The notes below the pieces were generated by a model. It worked only from the letters and a program-made list of their open reading frames with translations, was not told the DNA's origin and did no database searches. Positions 9,198-63,969 of a stretch of 64,000 nucleotides of DNA are shown piece after piece (the first letter of the stretch is position 1; each line of letters opens with the position of its first letter). Source of the stretch: Hericium rajendrae (taxonomy: Eukaryota; Basidiomycota; Agaricomycetes; Russulales; Hericiaceae); contig CM065879.1 in the NCBI GenBank assembly GCA_033439255.1, forward strand, positions 1,468,501 through 1,532,500, read 5' to 3'. A program made the translations under genes and the position numbers.

Positions 9198-9768
9198 CGA
9201 GTAGGGTGCCTGCTACTTGAGAGGGGTCGCGGCAGTATAGAAGGTTCCGATTAGGTTCGAAAGCTTGTTCGCAAGCAAACGTCGAAGCTTTTGGGTATGT
9301 TGTCGTGTTGAGCTCAGCGGCCAGCTCGAACTGGGTAACCTCGTCCCCGGGCCGAAGCGGGACCGCGAATCTTATCTTATCGAACAACGCTGGCGACCAG
9401 TGCCTTGCCAGTGCCACTATTTCCAGACGGCCTCGATAAGTTTATCTTTGTCGGTCCAAACTATGTATGCCCCCCTATAACTCGACTGCAGAGTTTTCGC
9501 ACTCACCGGAATGGAATCTTGAATGGAATCTTGGTAGAGCCGTCTAACCCTAGGTTGCCCCATGTGAAACTTAAAGCGGCTGCTGGAGCACAGGGTTTCA
9601 TTCCATTAATTCCGGCCGCTGCGAGAATTCTCTGATACCAATACTTAGGGTTCCTCCAGTGCCCACCTATACCTCGACTGCCCGTAGCCACTGATACAGG
9701 TACGTCCGAAGTCATACTTCTTTCCAGTCATCTCCACTCCCTTCGTCTCTACGTGCATCGCTGTCGCC
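9198..9768. other. Divergent promoter region with repeat copy 1
   Basis: Upstream of both the Arf-GAP gene (-) and the protease gene (+). It holds copy 1 of the ~100-bp direct repeat (9298-9401). No gene recognised. Confidence 0.5.
9298..9401 (+). repeat. ~100-bp direct repeat, copy 1
   Basis: Shares the core GGGCCGAAGCGGGACCGCGA and flanking blocks TCGAACTGGG.AACCTCG and CTGGCGACCAG with copy 2 at 12010-12115, in the same orientation and with roughly 90% identity over the central 75 bp. A weaker match (GT.GTGTTGAGC) extends the left side. The two copies bracket the protease gene. On the minus strand both read open as IRFAVPLRP, so a decayed gene fragment is possible; a short mobile repeat is the other reading. 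Confidence 0.7.
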
Positions 9769-11310
9769 ATGGCCACGCCCTGCCCTCCTTCCGAGATGGA
9801 GGCCAAGTATTACTACGCTGGCCTGCCCTCCGCCCCGCCCTTGGTCGCTCGCAGTAGCACCACTCCGTGGGAGGCACCCACGGGCCCGGAGGCGTACTCC
9901 CAGCTCAAGGAACTTAGGATCGTCGGCAACCATGCAATCACGGAAGTCTGGGTGGGCAACTTGGCTCCCAAGGTCCTCGCCCTCCTGGATTCGAAGCAGG
10001 TCAAGTGGACCAGCATGGACCTCGTTCGCATCGGCATCGTCGGAGAATCTCTTGCCCCTGTCATCCTCTGGATCGGCGTAATGCCCGCATCTCTCTCCCG
10101 CGAGGACGGCGTCGCCGTGGCCGTCAAGTGCCGAGAGCTTCTTGTAGAGCATGGTATCACCGACGTCGACGTCGAGATCCGCGAGTCGGTCGTCACCCGA
10201 TCCGCCCGTCCCAAGCTCGTCGAACCCACCTCCTCCAATCCAACTGTGAACGCTCGCGGGCCTCTTACCGCCACGCTCGGTCTCCCCATCTGTGCCCAGC
10301 TCACGCCTTGGGCTGAGGGCACCGGCGGCTTCTTTATCGCCGAAGGCGGCGACAGGAAGAGGCTGCTCCTCATCACCGCTCGCCATGTCGTCTTCACGCC
10401 GGACAAAAACGACAACAAGAAGTTCGAGCACAAGATAGATGGTCAGTTCCGTCATAACGTCATCCTTCTTGGCGGCGCGGTGTTTAAGAAGTTTCTCGAG
10501 TCCATTAAGGCCGAGATCGGAGGGAAGGCGCTCATCGCCCGGCACCAGGAAGGGCGTATTAGGGTGGTCGACGGGAGGGACGACCCGGCGGCTAACAGGG
10601 AGCGCCGGAATGCTCAGGATCTGTTGGATGAGGCGATGGAAGCGATGGAGGGTCTCAACACCTTCTACCAGGATGTCTCGACGCGCTGGGCCACCCCGGA
10701 GAGTCGCGTCTTGGGCCATGTAATCTTCTCCCCTCCCATTGACGTCGGTGCCGGTACCGAGAAGTACACCGAAGATTTCGCCATCATCGAGATGGACGCG
10801 AGCAACTTCAAGGACAACAACATCGACCTCGGCACCCAGATCCCGGCCGACGAGCTCACTCGCATAATGTACCCCAATCTCCAGAATGCTCGTAGCTTCA
10901 CGTACCCGGACAGCGATACCATCTCGGATGAGGAGATGCGTCGCCCGACCATGCTCGACCAGAATGGCGACCCGTGTCTCACGGTGTTCAAGCACGGCAA
11001 CGCCACCGGCCTGACCATTGGCCGCGCCAATGACATTGTCTCCTACGCCCGCAACTACGACGACGGCTCCCCCCAGACCTCCAAGGAATGGGCCATCCTG
11101 CCTCTTGACACCAAGTCCGGTGCCTTCTCCGCTAAGGGCGATTCCGGCTCCGTCATCGTCGACGGCCTCGGACGTATTGGCGGCCTCCTCACCGGCAGTG
11201 CTGGCGCCACGTCTTCCTCGGACGTCACATACGCCACGCCCATCAGCTTCCTCCTGAAGCGCATCCAAGGCTACGGGTTCCGCAATGTCAACCCGGTATT
11301 CGCCGCCTAG
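9769..11310 (+). CDS. Trypsin-like serine protease, intronless, cytosolic type
   Basis: A single uninterrupted frame of 513 codons. The C-terminal half carries a chymotrypsin-fold catalytic triad: His206 in LLITARHVV, Asp336 in EDFAIIEMD and Ser459 in AKGDSGSVIVDG. The spacing between His and Asp is unusually long and includes a helical insert (RNAQDLLDEAMEAMEGL). The N-terminal ~170 residues look like an independent domain (ELRIVGNHAITEVWVG, DLVRIGIVGESLAPVILW). There is no signal peptide, so secretion is not indicated. Proteases of this build are multicopy in Agaricomycetes. It is intronless, unlike its neighbours, and lies between two copies of a direct repeat, which suggests mobility or retro-copy origin. 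Substrate unknown. Confidence 0.82.
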   Translation: MATPCPPSEMEAKYYYAGLPSAPPLVARSSTTPWEAPTGPEAYSQLKELRIVGNHAITEVWVGNLAPKVLALLDSKQVKWTSMDLVRIGIVGESLAPVILWIGVMPASLSREDGVAVAVKCRELLVEHGITDVDVEIRESVVTRSARPKLVEPTSSNPTVNARGPLTATLGLPICAQLTPWAEGTGGFFIAEGGDRKRLLLITARHVVFTPDKNDNKKFEHKIDGQFRHNVILLGGAVFKKFLESIKAEIGGKALIARHQEGRIRVVDGRDDPAANRERRNAQDLLDEAMEAMEGLNTFYQDVSTRWATPESRVLGHVIFSPPIDVGAGTEKYTEDFAIIEMDASNFKDNNIDLGTQIPADELTRIMYPNLQNARSFTYPDSDTISDEEMRRPTMLDQNGDPCLTVFKHGNATGLTIGRANDIVSYARNYDDGSPQTSKEWAILPLDTKSGAFSAKGDSGSVIVDGLGRIGGLLTGSAGATSSSDVTYATPISFLLKRIQGYGFRNVNPVFAA

Positions 11311-12009
11311 GCGTCGCCATGAGTTGAATTCACAACGAATTATCTCAGTCGCTCGGTTTTTAGCTGAGAGACTAGTTGTTTGAGTTCGTCTTCTTTCTTT
11401 GTTCTCCTTTCCCCTTCACGCGCTGATGGCCTTTTTCAATGTCCAGTGCGGCCTTCGGTTCATGCGGGATGTGGCAGATGCAAGCACTCGACTAGTCTTT
11501 GTTTATCAGGTCGGTGGCCGCGGAGTTGTTGAAAATCGTATTCCTCGACTTCACCGTTACTACACTTCAGGCTTCACGGCTTTGTATTTTACTAGTTTTA
11601 CACTTCTCCACAGTATCTACTGTTCTAACACTATTCCAATGACTTGCTTAGTGAAGTATCTTATAATGGACTACAACTACGATAAGTCACAAAGCCTAAT
11701 CAATGATTACAAGTTGTACCACCATTGGCTTTGGGTCTTAAGTCAAGTACTCCACTGACTCCGAGCCTAGCGATTAGTATGTTCTGTGCACGACTCGCTT
11801 GGCCGTTCTTAAGCTCGAGCGCGAGACTCGATGCTCGAGTAGCCGTTCTCGCACAGCTGACACCGCGTCACCCGTTTGCGCGTTTATCCACTTAGATCCT
11901 CAATATTCCCTAAGGCCGTGGAAGCGTCTCTGACGCGTCTGTCGTGCGTCTATGACTGTCATAATCATTGGTCAATTTCCTGGTTACACCTCGGAGGTGT
12001 CTAGAGTAC
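11311..12009. other. Intergenic, AT-richer; no gene seen
   Basis: Downstream of the protease gene. A 119-codon frame at 11399-11758 has no coherent composition and I treat it as chance. Confidence 0.5.
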
Positions 12010-44914: not shown

Positions 44915-47900
44915 TTACTGGGTCATCCTCAGTCCCTGCAGAATGCTTAGAATGATAATCGAGGTGACCGCTCTTTGCTGCGAATCCATTCTTTCTTCAT
45001 GCATAGGCCCATTTCCGACCTTTCCCGTGAACCAATCAAAGCGATGTCCAAGCAGCTGGACCTCCCTCCTCTCCAAAAGACCGGCAACCCGTCCCATTTC
45101 ACTGAACATACGGATCAACGAGCTCTCCATAACCGCGGCAACCCAGCGCACACCAGCAAGTGTGGACTTCATGTCGCGAACCCTCTCAGCATTCCTCCAG
45201 AGATGACGGTATAGGTCATGCGAGATGTTCGCTAAGATTACAGCTGCGATCATCTCAAGACCGAAGACTAGCAAAGAGATCCCTGCATTGCCGATCGCGA
45301 CGATGGCCCCAAGGAAGGTCATTGAAAAGGAAATGAGGAGGAGCTCTGCGCTGTTCGGAGCGCCGTCAATGTAAACGTGTTCGGGGTATAGCTTGATGAG
45401 CCCCCCATCTCCCTTTGACCACATGTAAAAGCGCCAATAGGACCGCTGACCGTTGTTCCACCACGGATGGGTAACTGTGGCATCGAGCGCGGCAGCAAAC
45501 CCTTTGCCACCATTGGCAAGAGAGTGAAGGCGCTTTTGCCGGACGAAGTCAATATCTTCTCCTCCGCCCGTCTTCGGAAACTGCAAGTGGAACTGAACTC
45601 CGTCCTTGAAGTCACGGCGTGCGATCAGATTAGCAGTGACACCCCATGGGAGGTCGCTACGGACATCTTCAGGGAGTTTCGGGGCGATATCCCAAAAATA
45701 CGTGACTCCCGCAAGATGGACAGCTGTCGTGAATACTGTATCGGCAGAGGGAAAACAAGAAGTCCCCACCAATCCGGCGGCCAGTGGGTTTGCTCGAATC
45801 GCTTTCTCCGCTTCAACGAGGAGATTAGGTTCTGGGGAGACATCGTCGTCCAGGAAATAAACCCATTCCGCTGAGGCCTCGGACATGCCTCTGTTCCGCG
45901 AGGCTGAAGCACCAAGGTTGCTCTTGTTGACACGTATGCGAACGTCGGGACGATGGCCGTAGCGATTCTCCAGATGAACAATGAACGGGGAAGAAGGGTT
46001 GTCAACGATGATGATGAACATCACTGTGCATGTAGGAGAAGGCTGAAGGGACAGAATGCCTTCCAGATACCGCAGCTGGACACGATAACATGGAACGATG
46101 ATGTCGATCGACAGCTTCCTAGTCGATGCTCCTAGATATCCCTCGACTGTCCTGGTTGCTGTGGTCAAAGTGTCAAATGTCCAATCGGGATTGTGCTGCT
46201 TCACGTATCGCGCGGTATTGGTGCCGCCCAACTTGTTTCGGATCCTGGACTCCATCATCCTCGAACATCCGAATCTGCGATACAGCTGGAAAAGAAACGG
46301 ATCTCCGTCCTGGTTCACGAAAGTGTCCGGAACCACTTCGCCCGCGAAGATATCCATATGTGAACGGTGAATAATAGGAAACGTTGGCATTCCAGGAAAG
46401 CTTGTATCTGTGAATGCGACACAGCCTGCGCCGTATGGGACTCGCTCCGCCTGTGCAATCTTGTGGAACTCGGCGACTGCGTCGCGCATCCAGCCTTCAT
46501 CTTGAATGATTATGTCGTCGCCTAACAGGATGAAATAGGCACAGCCGTCCTCCCAAGCACGCCGCGCGCAAGCCCTCCACAGACTGCAAATGTGGCCACG
46601 AGGATAATCGCAGATCAGGGTCACTATGCTGGAGAACCCATTGGCGCGCAAAACCTCTTCGGCTCTGTTCTTGTCACGGAGGTAGTGGTCGTCGGCATCG
46701 ATAGCCAGATAGATCTTGACCTCGAAGCGCTTCCCACCAAGCGCCCGTGTGTCTCTCCAGGTAGTCCTCTCCAGCGACTGGGCAAACTCGGCGAGGTTCT
46801 CCAGGCAGTCCTCTGGAGCGTTCGATCCGCGTGACGTGATGGGCAAGAGAATGGCGAAGGTCTCGCGTTCAGCCTTCATGTGCACCAATTTGCTTTCCTG
46901 TAGATCGCGCAAATATGCTGACCGTCGGTCGTCGTCCAACTCTTCAAGCTGACTCTCCAGTTCAGCTGCGATCCACAGACCTGTCTGCCTCACACCTTCC
47001 TCGAGGCTGACCTGTGGCTCCCAGCTCAGCCTACTTCGCACAAAGTCATTATTGGAATTGCGAGATGCAACGCCGACTGGCTTGTCAGGGTCCAACTGCA
47101 GGTGAAGAGACGCCATATCGATGCCGACGCTCCGTGCGGCCAGTCGAGCAAGATCGCCAATGGAGATGGCCTCCTCTGACCCGATATTGACCACGTCTGT
47201 ACAACCCGAGTCTAAAACGCGAATGATGGCGTCGACGCAATCGTTGATGAACAGAAAGCTGCGGCGCTGTTTGCCAGTTCCCCATATCTCGATCACCGCG
47301 GGGTCTTCGGCGCCGGCCTGCGGCAGTTTGGCGCAGAGGGCCTTGCGTATCATGGCCGCTGGAGCCTTCTCGCGACCATTTGACCATGCGCCTCGGGGAC
47401 CATAGACGTTGTGGAACCGAGCCATATGAAGCTGGATGCTAGAACCGAACTGCTGAAGAAGAATCTCGGAGTGCAGTTTCTCAAGACCATAAAGGCCTTG
47501 AGGGGTGGGCGGCAAGGAGGACCACGCATCACTCTCCTTGAGGGAAACATCGCTGTTTTCATCCTTCTGCAGTGTCTCGGGGTAGACGCAGGCCGAAGAT
47601 GCATAGAAGAACCTCTTGACGCCCGCTGTGATGCAGGCGCGAAGAACTTCGAGGGTCATGGTGTGGTTTTCGAGATAGATGTCGAAATCATTTTCTGGGT
47701 GGATTGTGCCCATGCCACCCATGGTGGCGGCGAAATGGAGAACAGTGTGAGCACCCCTCACAACCTGCTCGCAGAAAGGGCCGTCGCAAAGGTTGCCTTG
47801 GATGAATTCCGAGCAGATCTTAATATCACCAAACGCAGATGCTGGACTGATATCCACGACGCGGACGAAATGTCCGGCGTCATGCAGACGATGGGCGACG

Positions 47901-48020
47901 TGAGAGCCCTGTGAATGAGAGTCGATATCTGATCAGTAGATGCCTTCAAGGAAGATCAGTCAGACTGACGATGAAGCCATGACCGCCTGTCACGACGATG
48001 ATATCTTTGGGGTTTGCCAT
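44915..48020 (-). CDS. GDP-mannose-3,5-epimerase-like / glycosyltransferase / GT2 fusion
   Basis: About 1,014 residues with one intron (47909-47969). Exon 1 MANPKDIIVVTGGHGFI joins GSHVAHRLHDAGHFVR, completing the NAD-binding GGxGFIGSH motif of an extended SDR. Residues 1-330 match plant GDP-mannose 3,5-epimerase at signature sites: AATMGGMG, VKRFFYASSACVYPE (acid/base Cys124), YGLEK (Tyr157, Lys161), GREKAPAA (Lys198) and RSFLFINDCVDAIIRVL. Residues ~355-590 form a GT-A-like domain (AIDADDHYL, FILLGDDIII). Residues ~600-850 form a GT2 domain (DIIVPCYRV, SRNRGMSEASAEWVYFLDDD, PKTGGGEDIDFVRQ). One or two hydrophobic helices follow (~870-925), suggesting membrane attachment. I infer an enzyme that makes a rare GDP-hexose and transfers sugars. 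It is divergent from a methyltransferase-GT8 fusion. Confidence 0.85.
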
Positions 48021-48835
48021 AGTGAGCTGGCTGCCGGTTCTGTCTCCAACTACGCATCCTTTAAAGCGAGAATAGAAAAAATAAACGGTTACGCAGACGC
48101 CCGATGAAGTTAGCACCCCAGAAGAAACGAATTCTGAAGACGAGCCTCGGTCAGCCCGCCGCGACACATTCCCCGCTGCCAACTAGTTGCTGTCCTTTGG
48201 AGATGTTCTTCGGAAAATTTGTGCGAGGCCGTATGCAGCAATTCAGACTGCGGATAACGACAAGACATGCTGCGTTCCCGACGAGAAGGCCGAAAAGAGG
48301 AGAGCCGCAGGTGTTGGGTTGCCTTTCATAGCGCGATCCGCAAGGTTTCGACTTGGCTTGCTGTTGAAGTTGAAGACCGAACGTCCCCAGAGTGGATCAT
48401 CAATGCCTGTGTGACATCCAACCGACTGCGCAGAAGGTTCTCAAACGGCAAAGGAAGTGGTGATAATCTGTGTGCTGGAAGGTCCAGAAATGCAGATACT
48501 CGATACGGGTGATACGGCCCTTATCCGCAGCATGTCAGTCAACGAAACTTGATGGAAGAAAAGTGATGACAATTATTCGCAGAAGATCGTACTCACCGAA
48601 AATTTCAAGGATCCATCTCGCCCAATAAACCGAAGCATGCGCTGATGACCGCGGATCCGGCGCTCTGAATACAATGAAAGCAATCGTCAGTATCTCTCAG
48701 AGGGTTATATCATCCTACCTGTGAGGCTTGCAACGGATCTTCACCCATCCTCTATGGCATCTCCTACAGAAGCACCAGTGAGCAGCTTGTATAATCATCC
48801 ATTGATCTGGAATATGAACTGTGAGTTTACAGGAC
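48021..48835. promoter_or_regulatory. Bidirectional promoter of the two glyco-fusion genes
   Basis: An 815-bp gap separates the start codons of two head-to-head genes. Short frames inside show no family signal; 5' UTR introns may lie here (for example the acceptor TTTACAG just before 48831). A shared promoter would allow co-expression of the pair. No specific factor site is claimed. Confidence 0.5.
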
Positions 48836-50431
48836 ATGGTCACTGACAAAACGAGAAACTACCTTTTCACTCCAACGCAAGACTGGTTCTCCTTCAACAT
48901 GGAGACCTGGAGGAAACTCTTCCCTCTGGTCACGTCTAAGGTGCCGCGCGTGCTGGAGATTGGATCCTGGGAAGGCCGTTCAGCGACTTTTCTGTTGGAC
49001 GAACTTTGTCGGGAGGACGGAAGCATCGTCTGCATCGACCATTTCGACTTGATGCGCAGCGACGCCGGCCGAGAGCGTTATCGAAAGATTACGCACAATC
49101 TCGCCGAGACAGGGAAGACCCATCGCATCCTCGACCATTTCAGTTTTCCGGCGCTGATGATACTCCTGGAGGAAGAGATGTCGTCCGCAGAACCCGGATT
49201 CGACTGGGTATACGTTGACGGGTCCCACGAGGCGGACGATACGTTCCTGGATGGCGAGCTTGCATGGCGTCTCGCCAGGAAGGGCGCGGTCTTCATCTTC
49301 GACGACTACGATTGGAACGTCGAGCCTCATGACAGCAAGCACCATCCGAAACGAGGCATTGACGCATTCCTCTTCCTTCATGACGGAGAGTACACACGTC
49401 TTTCCAGCCCTTCGCAGTACCAGATGATTCTGCAGAAGACATCGGACATGCGCATCGGTTTCTTGGCGAAGGAGAAAGCGGACCAGGATCTCGCACATGC
49501 TCTTGGATACGGCATCAATGTCGTCTATGCGATCGATTCGGGATTCGCCATGCCTACAGCTGTGTCAATCCGCAGCATCTTGGAACATACAGAGGAAAGG
49601 CTCACCATCTATATCATCGACTGCGGCCTTGCCGATGATGATAAGTCGAAGTTACGGGATTCTCTGCCGCCGCGCGAGAATTTCGGAATGGTGTTCCTAG
49701 GCCTTCCGTCAGGATGCCTCACCAGGGATGCCGGCGTGGTATGGGCAAAGCTAGAGATTGCTACTGTTGTGCCCGTCGAGAGGGTGCTCTACCTGGATGG
49801 CGACACGCTTTTGCGTGCGGACATCAAGCGCTTGTGGGATGAAGACCTGCGAGGTAGTCCGCTTGCCGCAGTCAGGGATGTCGGGTATCCGATGGGCCAT
49901 GGGGCCGAGACCGCAAGGCCCTACTTTAATGCAGGTGTTCTGCTCATGGACCTGACAAAGATCCGGAAGACAAGCGCAGAGCTGAGGATATTAGGCGAGG
50001 CCATGACGAAAGCAAGATACAAGGACCAAGACGTACTGAACATACATTTCGCTGGAAAGTGGTACGAATTATCATTGAAGTGGAATGCACAAGGCCTGGG
50101 GACGTATTCACAGTCACCTACGCCGGAGCGCAACATGTTGCATCTGGAACAAATGGGAGAACCGTGTCTCGTTCACTTCACCGGGCCGGTGCATCCCGCG
50201 TTGGAGATCGTGCTCAATCCCTGGGTGCAACCTTATACCGCGAAGCCATGGGGGTATGCAGGTGCACCAGGGCATCCGTTTGCCGAAGAATGGTGGCAGG
50301 TGTTGAATAAGACTGCTTGGAAAGGATACCGCGATTCTATCATTTTTAGGTCCTGCCGTAATCAGTCCATCGAGAACGCGATACAGCAGGCTAGCATCCA
50401 GCTCAAGCAGAAGGTGGATACAGCAGTCTGA
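48836..50431 (+). CDS. Methyltransferase - GT8 glycosyltransferase fusion
   Basis: Intronless, about 531 residues, ATG at 48836 (MVTDKTRNYLFTPTQDWF); the frame is open upstream only with non-ATG starts. The N-terminal ~200 residues are a class I SAM methyltransferase of the Methyltransf_24 type: VLEIGSWEGRSATFLL (SAM site), SIVCIDHFD, FDWVYVDGSHEADDTFLDGE, AVFIFDDYDW. The C-terminal ~300 residues are GT8 (LgtC/glycogenin-like): INVVYAIDSGFAMPTAVSIR, the metal-binding DxD in RVLYLDGDTLLRADI, RPYFNAGVLLMDL, KDQDVLNIHFAG and HFTGPVHP. There is no signal peptide or membrane helix. GT8 enzymes transfer from UDP-sugars with retention; the methyltransferase may cap the product by O-methylation. Head-to-head with the epimerase-glycosyltransferase fusion, implying a joint pathway. 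Confidence 0.88.
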   Translation: MVTDKTRNYLFTPTQDWFSFNMETWRKLFPLVTSKVPRVLEIGSWEGRSATFLLDELCREDGSIVCIDHFDLMRSDAGRERYRKITHNLAETGKTHRILDHFSFPALMILLEEEMSSAEPGFDWVYVDGSHEADDTFLDGELAWRLARKGAVFIFDDYDWNVEPHDSKHHPKRGIDAFLFLHDGEYTRLSSPSQYQMILQKTSDMRIGFLAKEKADQDLAHALGYGINVVYAIDSGFAMPTAVSIRSILEHTEERLTIYIIDCGLADDDKSKLRDSLPPRENFGMVFLGLPSGCLTRDAGVVWAKLEIATVVPVERVLYLDGDTLLRADIKRLWDEDLRGSPLAAVRDVGYPMGHGAETARPYFNAGVLLMDLTKIRKTSAELRILGEAMTKARYKDQDVLNIHFAGKWYELSLKWNAQGLGTYSQSPTPERNMLHLEQMGEPCLVHFTGPVHPALEIVLNPWVQPYTAKPWGYAGAPGHPFAEEWWQVLNKTAWKGYRDSIIFRSCRNQSIENAIQQASIQLKQKVDTAV

Positions 50432-50874: not shown

Positions 50875-52587
50875 TCATTTGCCGATTCGAACCTGTCGAA
50901 GAGCTATAAAGTCGTCCGGCTCGGCGCATGGCAACGATCTATGGTCCACAGTAAGCTTCCGTAGCACCAAACCATTCCTTTGGCGTATCTCCAAAACGTG
51001 CGCGAGTAGATCGAAGAAATCTCCGGTCACTGATGCTTTATAAGGTATACGTCCAAAATGTAGCTCGCGCAGCCTGGGACAAGGCAAAAGATATTTTCCA
51101 CAGCCATCCAGTGTGCCGAGCAAGGCGGCAACAATCTCTGGGAACGAGTCGACAATGGGAACGTGGAGGTATTGGACGGCGTCCATCTGCTGCAGCAAAG
51201 GCACCCAGGCGACCGGATTGTTCTCGCCCGACCAGCAGTGGAACGGAGGCGAAATATACCACGACAAACACAGCTTCTCGATCGTGTTCAGCGGAAATTG
51301 GGAGCAGAGGGCAAGGACTCCATCATAAGCCTTAGCGCCGGCTTGCAGAATCGTCGCAGAGAAGGATGCGGGCGTCTTGTTCCACCTGCCATCGTCCGTC
51401 TCGACGTCGAGCGTGCGCCAGCCTTCAACGGAGAATATCCTGGCATCCCAACTAAAGATACGGAGCGAAGTGAGACGTGGCACCACACCTGGGATGCTAG
51501 AGGTTGTGACCTGAGCGGGTAGAAGTTGGACAGTGCGGCCCTCCCGCATCGAGAGCATCGTAGTCATGTCTAGTTTCAGCGATGTCCAGTTGCATTCCAA
51601 CATGAAAATGAAAGCGCAATAATTGAGAACCCAAGGACTGTATATCTCCAACCTCTCCAGGTGAGGTAGTATGACATGTGAAGACTGGTCCAGCGTTGTC
51701 AGAAGCGAATGCGAGTTCCCGGGAGCAGTGAGGATATCGTGCGCCTTAAGCACCCTCAGGCTCGGCATGCGACGGAGGACCCCGAGAAAGTCGAGGAGAG
51801 AGAAGTATTCTGGGCAAGGCAGACGCCCGCGAGCTGGACCTCTTCCCAGAGACAGATGGGTCAAGTTCGCCGATAGCAAAGGCGAGCTGAAATCCACGGG
51901 GATATCCCACAGAGTGAGTTCGCGCAACGCGGGAACTACGCCCGCGAAAACGTCGGAAGGAATGACGAAGTGCCGTTGATACTTCCGATACTTCCTCCCC
52001 GGCTCCTGGATGCTCAGAGATAGACTCCGCAGATACGGCGCCGGGACGATGGCATGCTGTAAAAACCAATATACTTGATAACCGCTGTGAGTGAAGGACT
52101 CCAAGCGATGGAGATTGGCGACGAGTTGATCTACATCGCGCAGCTGGCGGAGCGGCTTGCGTATGCCAGAGCTCGTAGTGAAGGTGACATGACGGAGGTG
52201 CTGGTCGCCTGAACGTCGCATGAACTCCTGGGGCCACCCTCCGGACTGAAGGGAGATATGTGTCCAGAGCCATGGCATGTCAAAAATGAGGAGACGCCAG
52301 CGGCGACAGACATGACTGAGCACGATCCATCCTAGTCTCTCGTGCGGATCAGAAGGATTCCAGCAAGGTTCCCATATCTCCCTCACTTGCTCGAAGATCG
52401 ACATAAGTAGGTCCGTCGGTAAGCGCGCCCCCGGGGAGAGTGGCCCAGGTTCGGCGTCAGCTCTGCATGGGTCGCTTGACGAAGATATCTTGGGTAAAGT
52501 AAAGTTGGTCAGCGCCTATAAACAACTCAGGTTTGACTGACACGCTCGTACCTTCTTCAGCATCCTCTGGAACGCCTGTCGTCCCAT
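50875..52587 (-). CDS. F-box/LRR-type protein
   Basis: Two exons: 52552-52587 (MGRQAFQRMLKK) and a long exon beginning ALTNFTLPKISSSS. An F-box follows at residues ~45-95: GARLPTDLLMSIFEQVREIW, then ERLGWIVLSHVCRRWRLLIF and DMPWLWTHISL, the pattern of many basidiomycete SCF adaptor proteins. The remaining ~400 residues have irregular leucine-rich segments (LRSLSLSIQEPG, ALRELTLWDIPVDFSSPLL, LPHLERLEIYSPW, RLTSLRIFSWDARIFS). The role would be substrate recruitment to a Skp1-Cullin ubiquitin ligase. Such genes are highly expanded in Agaricomycetes and rarely have known targets. The frame continues upstream of the chosen ATG by splicing, but only to a GTG at 52752, so I keep 52587. Confidence 0.8.
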
Positions 52588-56080: not shown

Positions 56081-58110
56081 ATGCAGCACAAGGCCTTTCC
56101 TCCACTCCCTGCTAGTACTGCAGGACCCTGGCCACATGGTGTCCGGGCTGCGCACAAGTTGCTCGAAGAGGCATGCCAGCATGCAAGACAGCTTCTCCGA
56201 CAGGATGACTCGGATCCTTTGCGGCTTCGCATTGTCGCTGCAAGACTTCATTCGATGGTCCCGCTGCTCACTCAGCTCGCCACTGAAGTGAAAAACAGAC
56301 TGTGGGCTGAGCTCTGCGCGCAGGATCTAGGCCGCCTCATCGGCCAATTGCGTCGTACGGCTAGCGCAGTCCGAGATGAGTGAGTGAACTGCGAAGACTC
56401 AAGTTGGAGCCCGTGCTAACATCATATATTCACAGTGCATGTGACAGATATATGATAGTCCGTCCCATGGCTGTTGTGTCCAACGGTTCTCGTGGTCGAC
56501 CGCAGAAAGTCATCGATGACAGATGGTTGAGAGACGTGACCGCAGCAAAGCGCAAGCTCCCGTTCACACAGCTATCGCGTACTGCTCATGTCCACAGAAG
56601 CACGTTTTACCGTGCTTTGAAACGCGCCGGCCTTCCAACATCAAAATTTTCGAACCTATCAGATGAACAACTTGACACGTTAGTCCGTGCATTCAAGATA
56701 CAGAAGCCAACCTCTGGTTACAAATTTGCTGACGCATTCTTGCGGGTCCAATGCGATACTCGTGTACCACGGAGCCGGATCTGCGGATCAATGCGACGAG
56801 TGGATGCCCTCGGGCAGGCTCTTCGCCATAATGGTATGATTCAGCGGCGACGTTACGAGGTTCCCAGGCCCAACCACCTCTGGCATTGCGATGGGCATCA
56901 CAAATTGATCAAATGGGGTATCGTAATTCATGGTTTCATTGATGGTTATTGTCGCACAGTATGTTTGCATTCTTTCCTCACGGTTCTGTCGTGCTCAACA
57001 TCTGCGCATTCTGATAGGTCACCGGCCTTCGTGCAAGCACAAACAATTTGCCTGAGACAGTTCTTGATGTCTTCAAACACGCGATTAATGACTTCGGACT
57101 TCCTTCACGCATGCGGGGAGATCGAGGAGGTGAGAATGTCCAGGTATCGGTCTACATGATCATGCATCGTGGGCAGAATCGAGGCTCATTCTTGTGGGGA
57201 TCGTGAGTCTACCATCTGCTTTTCTGACCTGGACTGATGTCAAATTTGCAGCTCGACTCATAATTCTCGGATCGAGAGACTTTGGGTTGACATCGGTGTT
57301 CAATTTGCATGGCGCTGGCGTGCATTCTTCTTGCGATTGGAGCACTATCACGAGCTCGATCGCAAGAACCCAACCCATTTATGGCTGCTTCATTCACTCT
57401 TCCTAGCCGATATCAACACGGAGTGCAAGACATTTCAAGACCAGTGGAATCATCATTCTGTGAGCGGATCAAACATGCACAACCGGACACCATCAGTAAG
57501 TCCTTTTTTCAACAGCACATGGCACTCAGTAATAGATAATATTCTTCAGGACATGCGTCTTCTGGCTTCTACAGAACAAGGTATCTACCCAGATGAAGAC
57601 AATCTTGCGCAAGTTGAGCCAGCGCTACTTCAAGAGCATTATGGTGTTGACGGACCGCCGGCACATAGGCAAAGAGGTCAGACAGGTGCTGGTCATCCCC
57701 TTGACGAAGAGGATGCTGATGAAGATGATGCTGAGGAGCCTTTGAGGGCACAGTCAGCCAACAATTTAGCTGCACAGATTGCAGCTGATCAAGGGCCAAA
57801 TGTACAGCATGAGCCTATTGAAGTTAGCCGCCATGCCAATCCTTTCCCGACTTTTAATGTGGAGCAGCTTTTTTGGGCCGCATTTCAGAAAGCGCAAGCA
57901 GCTCATATTGTGCCGGATGCAATGATGCTCACTGATGCTGAATGGGGGTTCGATGGTTATCCTACCCAGGAAGATATCCCTCTCGGTACTCGCAATCGGC
58001 GTGCACTGACTGTAGCTCTTCCCATTGAGGTGTGGTATCCCAGGGCTGTCGCTTGGAGTCAGGCATTATACTTACTCACTGCATTTCTGACGGAATTAGG
58101 TACCCTATAG
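56081..58110 (+). CDS. RVE/DDE integrase-domain protein (transposase-derived?)
   Basis: Five or six exons, start MQHKAFPPLPASTAGP. An intron near 56379-56435 leads to MAVVSNGSRGRPQKVIDD. A helix-turn-helix-like region follows (FTQLSRTAHVHRSTFYRALK), then the RNase-H-like integrase core: first Asp in NHLWHCDGHHKLIKWGI, second in RGDRGGENVQVSVYM, and the Glu in THNSRIERLWVDIGVQF. Downstream are HELDRKNPTHLWLLHSLFL and an acidic linker, ending at 58110. The catalytic D-D-E is intact and no stop breaks the spliced frame. Similar intron-bearing integrase genes occur widely in Agaricomycetes without terminal repeats and may be domesticated or belong to an unclassified DNA transposon. I saw no obvious flanking inverted repeats. 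Confidence 0.8.
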
Positions 58111-63101: not shown

Positions 63102-63969
63102 TAAGGCTCCAACCATTTTATTTACATTTACTGAAAATTCTAAAAAAAAATGGTAAATAGTATATAGATAGTAAATAGATAGTAAATAAACAGTATAAAT
63201 GGTTGGAGAAGTGTTCAAATTATTTGAGTCTAAGCAAGGCTATATCTTAGTCTTTGCAGATACTAATAAGCTCATTTATTACTCAGAATTTAACAATTGA
63301 ATTTCAATAGATTCTAAGCATGCAAAATAGCAAGAGATTTGTATGCAAGATAAGCAATGACTAAAAAGTCTTGATGGTTGTTCTGCTTTGTGTATTAGAG
63401 GAGACTGCTTATCATCTTTTTAGTAACTAAGAAACCATCAATATGATAGATATGAGAATGTTTATATATTAAGGATATATGTAGACTATGAGAAATAAAA
63501 TTGAACAGAACAATATAAACACATTGATAGCAAGCAGATATCACATGTCATAATCAGCAAGAATATAGTGACTCAGAAAATCTTGCTACAATTTGAAATT
63601 GGAGCTCTTACAGTCACTTTGCTTCTCCTAGTGACAAGCATGAGAATGTCTATTAGATTGATCTTACTGCTGAATGTGTCCTGCAATCCAGACTATTAGT
63701 GCTCTTCAGAGTGTTTTTTATGTTCTTGAAATAAATGTGCTTAACAAAACACTAGACCTCTCTATATAAACACTGGAATTACAGAATATAGATGACTTAC
63801 ATGTTGATTTCTGACCATTCTAGCATCTCTTAAGCACTAATAACCAATATCATTTACTCTTTACTTTACTATATATTTTATGTTTTCAAGGCACCCTGTA
63901 AATAAATAGTAAAAAGAAATAGTAAAAACCATTTATACACAGTAAATAAACAAAATAGTTGGAGCCTTA
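63102..63969. mobile_element. 868-bp non-autonomous DNA transposon (hAT-like MITE)
   Basis: Ends in terminal inverted repeats: left TAAGGCTCCAACCATTTTAT, right (reverse complement) TAAGGCTCCAACTATTTTGT, with similarity over about 30 bp. It is flanked by a perfect 8-bp duplication GTCTTGGA, the size produced by hAT transposases. The interior is very AT-rich and codes for no transposase. Subterminal regions hold clustered AGTAAATA-type motifs and a second inverted pair (GTATAAATGG near 63193 and CCATTTATAC near 63929), as expected for transposase binding sites. It interrupts the Cys-rich frame at 62815. hAT assignment rests on duplication length and TIR form only. Confidence 0.85.

Follow-up and report, generated by a model that had tools for sequence, protein, structure and literature searches.

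A predicted GDP-mannose 3,5-epimerase domain fused to a family 2 glycosyltransferase, encoded beside a methyltransferase-GT8 fusion in the fungus Hericium rajendrae

The genome of the basidiomycete Hericium rajendrae (GCA_033439255.1; 46.8 Mb in 19 contigs) encodes a predicted GDP-mannose 3,5-epimerase (GME) domain fused to a family 2 glycosyltransferase (GT2), in a gene that lies head-to-head with a second fusion gene, where a methyltransferase is joined to a family 8 glycosyltransferase (GT8). The two genes, here called A and B, lie in a stretch of 64,000 nucleotides (the window; C2:1468501-1532500, where C2 is the 4.87-Mb contig CM065879.1), and positions below are those of the window unless stated otherwise. 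In the best explanation of the whole, gene A would make GDP-L-galactose and transfer it at a membrane, with gene B acting on the same product, and we give this reading of the sequences a probability of roughly 0.5.

Both genes are real, and the earlier view of them as a pair of glycan-type enzymes holds. Gene A occupies a frame of 1005 codons (44915-47932, minus strand) and gene B one of 537 codons (48818-50431, plus strand), as a preliminary description of this DNA had placed them, and each goes well beyond chance: when the window was shuffled 20 times at the mononucleotide level, no stop-to-stop frame exceeded 275 codons. The one intron claimed for gene A is a clear one of 61 nt (47969-47909, GTCAGT...CACAG), separating a 17-amino-acid exon 1 (48020-47970) from exon 2 (47908-44915, stop included). 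Its removal restores the Rossmann motif TGGHGFIG across the exon junction, and the spliced protein begins MANPKDIIVVTGGHGFIGSHVAHRL. Gene B had been called intron-free, which holds for its uninterrupted long exon, but a small 5′ intron of 55 nt (48778-48832, coding resuming at 48833) may precede it, a candidate predicted from sequence rather than from transcripts. The 815-bp gap given for the pair likewise stands if gene B starts at 48836, but shrinks to 733 bp if the 24-nt first exon is used.

Pfam recognizes Epimerase and Glycos_transf_2 in gene A, and the former, described earlier as just an epimerase, can be refined to GME. The top five matches of the domain among PDB sequences are all GDP-mannose 3,5-epimerases (~1e-64; the Arabidopsis enzyme AtGME, 2c59, at 2.4e-64), and GME scores 220.7 bits vs 72 for the next short-chain dehydrogenase/reductase (SDR), while the best GDP-fucose synthase reaches 1.9e-19. 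Gene A and AtGME agree at 129 of 302 aligned positions. The available text of PMC6678494 supplies the NAD motif expected of GME as an extended SDR (GxxGxxG or GxxGxxA), and gene A has it as TGGHGFIG. The Ser-Tyr-Lys triad is present as S122, Y157 and K161, equivalent to AtGME S143, Y174 and K178. According to the accessible portions of PMC8787198 and PMC6678494, a Cys-Lys pair and an Arg separate GME from GDP-fucose synthase. The acid-base pair of gene A is C124 and K198 (AtGME C145 and K217), with Lys and not His, and its Arg is R300 (AtGME R306), a position held by Lys in GDP-fucose synthase. By these residues the gene A epimerase is a GDP-mannose 3,5-epimerase, and the rare hexose proposed in the preliminary description is for that reason likely. 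The NAD motif, the triad, the Cys-Lys pair and the Cys-activating Arg are shared with AtGME and the bacterial MfGM35E alike. Solved plant GMEs, however, are single-domain chains of 379-409 amino acids, whereas that of gene A is fungal, very divergent, and shares its chain with a membrane GT2 and an orphan domain.

The C-terminal 404 amino acids of gene A make up a whole GT2 enzyme, with 51.1 bits for PF00535 against a cut-off of 23.3 and a metal-binding DXD-type motif, FLDDD. In addition to the predicted transmembrane hairpin, a third hydrophobic helix (634-652), borderline by hydropathy, falls inside the GT2 core. When a 660-amino-acid query from gene A was run against 395 Bacteroidota genomes, 301 gave a match, nearly all of them short generic GT2s; the outlier was one genome, G704, at E 6e-45 with 34% identity over query residues 252-636, the runner-up being at 3.3e-10. 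The G704 match is a stand-alone protein of 365 amino acids, co-linear to its end with the gene A GT2, membrane part included. A profile of the two proteins, with the best four candidates at most scored per genome, found relatives at E 1e-20 in 3 of 390 genomes of one Bacteroidota class (G704 among the three) and in 0 of 398 Pseudomonadota genomes. These Bacteroidota enzymes resemble the gene A GT2 along their length and in their membrane part, but differ in standing alone. Within the 20, 20 and 5.2 kb around them there is no match at E 0.1 to GME, the middle domain of gene A, the methyltransferase or GT8, and their neighbours look, from their sequences, like other transferases, sulfotransferases, acyltransferases and a radical-SAM protein, with one glycosyltransferase in L213 recognized by NCBIfam. 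A structure model of the GT2 (4-row alignment, mean pLDDT 54, the first 120 residues in blocks of 72-92) was also used for a fold search of the PDB, which was led by GT2-type structures (E 1e-11 to 1e-9; PDB matches at 5.6e-11 and weaker), with query TM ~0.4. Chondroitin polymerase ranked first; further matches include RmlT, GtrB, which is a polyisoprenyl-phosphate transferase, and, at rank 33, WrtF, a GDP-fucose enzyme.

The domain between GME and GT2 is an orphan, with no family relative in Pfam (best E 0.18, irrelevant), NCBIfam or PDB sequences (best E 0.99), and none elsewhere in the fungal genome or in pattern scans of genome contigs and viral contigs. In a single-sequence model of mean pLDDT 54, strands alternate with helices over the first 160 residues and the acidic motifs follow strands 2 and 4. 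Such strand-helix alternation resembles the nucleotide-binding half of GT-A enzymes, and the domain may, on this weak model, be GT-A-like. A fold search with the same model gave no glycosyltransferase among the matches listed, hhalign against the GT2 set returned a probability of 0.3%, and a degenerate pattern for one of its motifs drew three proteins from viral contigs, all unrelated. As a known glycosyltransferase the domain is unproven, there being no sequence, profile or fold match. Three glycosyltransferase domains had been counted in the pair; those in gene A (GT2) and gene B (GT8) stand, but the third, the middle domain, finds no support in Pfam, NCBIfam or PDB sequences.

The methyltransferase and GT8 ascribed to gene B are both borne out, with 62.3 bits for PF13578 (cut-off 26.3) and 106.3 bits for PF01501 (cut-off 24.3). 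LgtC, a GT8 alpha-1,4-galactosyltransferase, uses UDP-galactose. The gene B GT8 shares its core DXD, NAG and DQD motifs but, unlike LgtC, is fused to a Methyltransf_24 domain, for which the best bacterial matches show 33-38% identity. Gene B has matches in 56 of 398 Pseudomonadota genomes (E 0.001) and 42 of 395 Bacteroidota genomes (E 1e-6), where the best three candidates at most were scored per genome, and none of the matches listed spans methyltransferase and GT8 together. In a further set of eight genomes, no match to gene B was found.

Within the fungus's own genome, a pairwise search finds the domains of A and B in one copy each, with no close paralogue of the GT2, the GT8 or the methyltransferase. 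Family models do mark further places in the genome, five for GT8 and one for Methyltransf_24, but none of these matches gene B pairwise at E 0.001. All four recognized domains (GME, GT2, methyltransferase and GT8) have better matches in bacteria than elsewhere in this genome, and they are bacterial in type, as had been proposed, in that none closely duplicates a glycosyltransferase of the fungus itself. The same contig carries a gene of the GDP-mannose dehydratase family (C2:883957-885069; PF16363, E 1.9e-117), which fits a GDP-mannose pool and also suggests a GDP-fucose route. The fungal GDP-fucose route, comprising GMD and GDP-fucose synthase, also starts from GDP-mannose, but takes two separate enzymes to a 6-deoxy sugar, whereas gene A would give a 6-hydroxy sugar with one.

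Table 1. Features of the gene pair and of its stand-alone GT2 relatives (window coordinates, or coordinates within the named Bacteroidota loci).
Feature	Position	Strand	Details
Gene A	44915..48020	-	1,014-aa protein: GME, orphan domain, GT2 and transmembrane hairpin
GDP-mannose 3,5-epimerase (GME) domain	46925..48020	-	residues 1-345, intron within span; PF01370 1.3e-33; PDB matches; residue map
Orphan middle domain, possibly GT-A glycosyltransferase	46115..46897	-	261 aa; acidic motifs IDADD, LLGDD after strands
GT2 glycosyltransferase with C-terminal membrane part	44918..46129	-	PF00535 1.2e-13; FLDDD, GGGEDIDF motifs
Two predicted transmembrane helices	45230..45349	-	residues 871-889, 892-910; hydropathy alone
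Shared upstream region between start codons	48021..48753	.	733 bp (815 bp with a B start at 48836)
Gene B	48754..50431	+	~540 aa if 24-nt first exon 48754-48777 used; long exon alone open from 48818
Methyltransf_24 (class I S-adenosylmethionine methyltransferase)	48953..49309	+	PF13578 9.4e-17; LEIGSWEGRSA, DGSH...DDY motifs
GT8 glycosyltransferase, LgtC type	49511..50233	+	PF01501 2.6e-30; YLDGDT (DXD), YFNAGVLL, DQDVLN; LgtC 1g9r 3.5e-12
Stand-alone Bacteroidota GT2 relatives	L213:9274-10371, L220:9148-10263, L221:2323-3489		28-35% identity over length

The substrate, product, topology and cooperation that we infer for the two proteins are as follows. The GME domain would convert GDP-D-mannose to GDP-L-galactose, with some GDP-L-gulose expected. 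The inverting GT2, presumably held at the cytosolic face by its transmembrane hairpin, would then hand the L-sugar to an acceptor that is lipid-linked or lies in the membrane, and the middle domain could serve as a second GT-A transferase or as a module with an acceptor or structural role. In plants, GME is a cytosolic enzyme, and GDP-L-galactose feeds cell-wall L-galactose. Gene B, which is read in the opposite direction from the shared upstream region, would likely work on the same product, its retaining GT8 adding a hexose and its methyltransferase capping or marking the result. More generally, and as a tentative proposal, some fungi may possess a single-chain, membrane-anchored epimerase-transferase that supplies GDP-L-galactose for an L-galactose-bearing, O-methylated glycan or glycolipid.

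Several observations weigh against this scheme. The equivalents of AtGME D78, D101 and R304 are changed to N, T and A in gene A, and the GME domain is extremely divergent, with an end branch of 2.4-4.1 changes per column; because of both, its activity or specificity may differ. The models of the middle domain and the GT2 share the same low mean confidence, and the middle domain matches no recognized family. Finally, the co-function of A and B is argued from proximity and kind of enzyme, and no related locus examined carries A-like and B-like genes together. This last point favours the view that A and B are unrelated neighbours, A leading to an L-sugar glycoconjugate and B independently glycosylating and methylating another acceptor, such as a small molecule. 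In compact fungal genomes it is common for divergent genes to lie this close together, and the GT8 and methyltransferase matches of gene B are separate in prokaryote genomes, among the matches listed. Against it, two adjoining multidomain glyco-enzymes with bacterial-type domains, each occurring once in the genome, seem unlikely to have come together by chance, an impression to which no number is attached, and we consider the explanation a plausible one that we nonetheless do not favour.

As to the origin of the pair, its composition mostly agrees with that of host genes. GC content at third codon positions (GC3) is 0.62 in gene A and 0.65 in gene B, compared with 0.63-0.71 in F-box, EST1 and arrestin-like exons (the last labelled from a reading of the protein, which has no family match) and 0.42-0.51 in nearby integrase open reading frames. 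The codon usage of A and B correlates at 0.79-0.88 when compared to the F-box and EST1_a sets, and at 0.60-0.68 when compared to the integrase sets. The picture is not clean, as A reaches 0.68 with the EST1_b set, equal to its value for integrase_a. The best GME identity to gene A is ~43-45%. The preliminary description had inferred horizontal acquisition; a recent one is unlikely, given host-like GC, mostly host-like codon usage and a very divergent GME, while an old bacterial origin is possible. In the explanation that we put at an even chance, bacterial-type parts came together at an early date, either within the lineage of this fungus or in an ancestor of it.

Trees of the GME domain, in which the plant rows are fragments, place the fungal sequence beside plants and a few Bacteroidota. 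In a quick tree of 171 rows it lies with plants and four Bacteroidota GMEs (SH-aLRT 86, end branch 4.08), and in a careful tree of 56 hand-picked rows with plants and two of those four (bootstrap 84, not settled; SH-aLRT 88; branch 2.37). Fungus and plants as one clade, a grouping named after the first tree, are not rejected by the approximately unbiased (AU) test (p 0.226). As support is weak and the branch long, this placement may reflect long-branch attraction. The four Bacteroidota GMEs nearest the plants in the first tree (L019, L039, L041 and L047) have 195-207 extra codons before the epimerase match, in frames of 526-538 codons, and are perhaps another GME fusion.

It is conceivable, though rather doubtful, that gene A is of old eukaryotic descent, passed down vertically among fungi, lost from many lineages, and intron-poor by chance or retroposition. 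Its placement in both trees and the AU result would agree with this, as would Table 1 of Yin et al. 2011 (PMC3220709), which in its accessible part counts two fungal close homologues of plant GME without naming them, so that fungal GME-like genes have been counted before. The weak support and long branch tell against vertical descent, however, as do the close relatives of the fused GT2 in Bacteroidota. An unlikely alternative of another kind is that the epimerase domain has changed function, giving another GDP- or NDP-L-sugar (GDP-L-gulose as the main product, or from another substrate) or serving as a non-catalytic scaffold. The altered D78, D101 and R304 equivalents and the very long branch in both trees would suit such a change, but the catalytic residues named for GME are kept and the score gap between GME and the next SDR is wide.

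The preliminary description also likened the pair to a ready-made bacterial or viral glycan cassette, and this is not supported, because no bacterial or viral locus examined carries the fusions or the pair, whether in the locus samples, the matches listed or the pattern scans. The locus set comprised 168 loci of 3-17 kb, namely 80 of 572 confirmed bacterial GME loci, 80 of 585 on viral contigs, and 8 phage or plasmid loci, chosen by GME (167 with a GME match; L018 was fetched for its methyltransferase) and searched at E 0.01. They yielded 0 matches to the middle domain, the gene A C-terminus or GT8, three weak GT2 matches and one methyltransferase (L018). Among phage and plasmid records, none reaches 80% coverage of either gene, and the Bacteroidota GT2 relatives, as noted, have no GME, methyltransferase or GT8 match nearby. 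Phage records matching gene A at E 1e-5 number 126 of 50,697, of which 89 are named Synechococcus or Prochlorococcus; the 30 listed match the epimerase part alone at 38-41% identity, and others of the 126 may be other SDRs. Three cyanophage loci (L015, L016 and L017) have GME-like genes with annotated glycosyltransferases within 3 kb, along with phosphatases in L015. Single-sequence pattern scans of viral contigs with A, B and the middle domain, which reach close relatives alone, found no relative, and giant-virus ancestry is unsupported by them; a search of the viral contigs with the GT2 alignment gave 3 weak matches.

The low intron number of the pair relative to its neighbours had been a further argument for acquisition, and this contrast is borne out in part. 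Where 10 kb were sampled at four other places in the genome, the frames that reach 400 codons number two (479 and 496), and none exceeds 500. The contrast is weakened because the adjoining F-box protein gene (50875-52515, minus strand) is also one long frame, of 546 codons, and stop-to-stop frames of at least 400 codons number seven in the window, at six places, this gene included. Recent transfer of a ready-made cassette is very improbable: the few introns, the bacterial type of the recognized domains and the occurrence of GME-like genes in phages lend it something, but GC3 and most codon correlations are host-like (A vs EST1_b not being clean), the NAD motif is interrupted by an intron, identity to the nearest GME is modest, and no record or locus examined has the fusions.

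Elsewhere in the window, EST1 and F-box genes are among the neighbours of the pair and, like the introns, agree with a fungal source, and no RNA family scores above threshold in 43000-64000. About 6 kb from the pair, at 56380-58110, a single integrase core model (PF24764) is spread in parts over two frames (GC3 0.51 and 0.42), a mobile-element remnant or a gene. An AT-rich segment (63102-63969, ~30% GC) has 23-nt inverted ends (TAAGGCTCCAAC...) with 91% complementarity and in this resembles a MITE-type transposon that is non-coding. At 9688-11415, two long frames of 540 and 567 codons overlap on opposite strands, the minus frame having no Pfam match at E 0.01.

A 491-taxon survey of fungal nucleotide sugars (PMC8092308) lists GMD, GER, UGE, UXS and others; in its accessible text, GME is absent from the lists and "l-galactose" has 0 occurrences. 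The available portions of PMC8787198 contain neither "fungi", "fungal" nor "multidomain", and "fusion" once, in a reference, while those of PMC6298397, PMC12929423 and PMC4396506 hold nothing about fungal GME. No GME-glycosyltransferase fusion or characterized fungal GME appears in the literature searched, which was covered by titles and abstract openings, most subscription journals lying outside its scope. In plants, GDP-L-galactose is on the route to vitamin C (PMC4396506 and PMC8787198, in the parts available), and, according to the opening of the PMC6678494 abstract, the instability of plant GMEs is among the obstacles to making L-sugars with the enzyme. If the proposed reading is true, the sugars available to fungi would gain a member through a GME that carries its own transferase; the fusion could also serve as a natural example for studying how nucleotide sugars are channelled, and as a biocatalyst in one chain for making L-sugars. 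It would also mean that a fungus uses a precursor of plant vitamin C and cell walls outside ascorbate synthesis.

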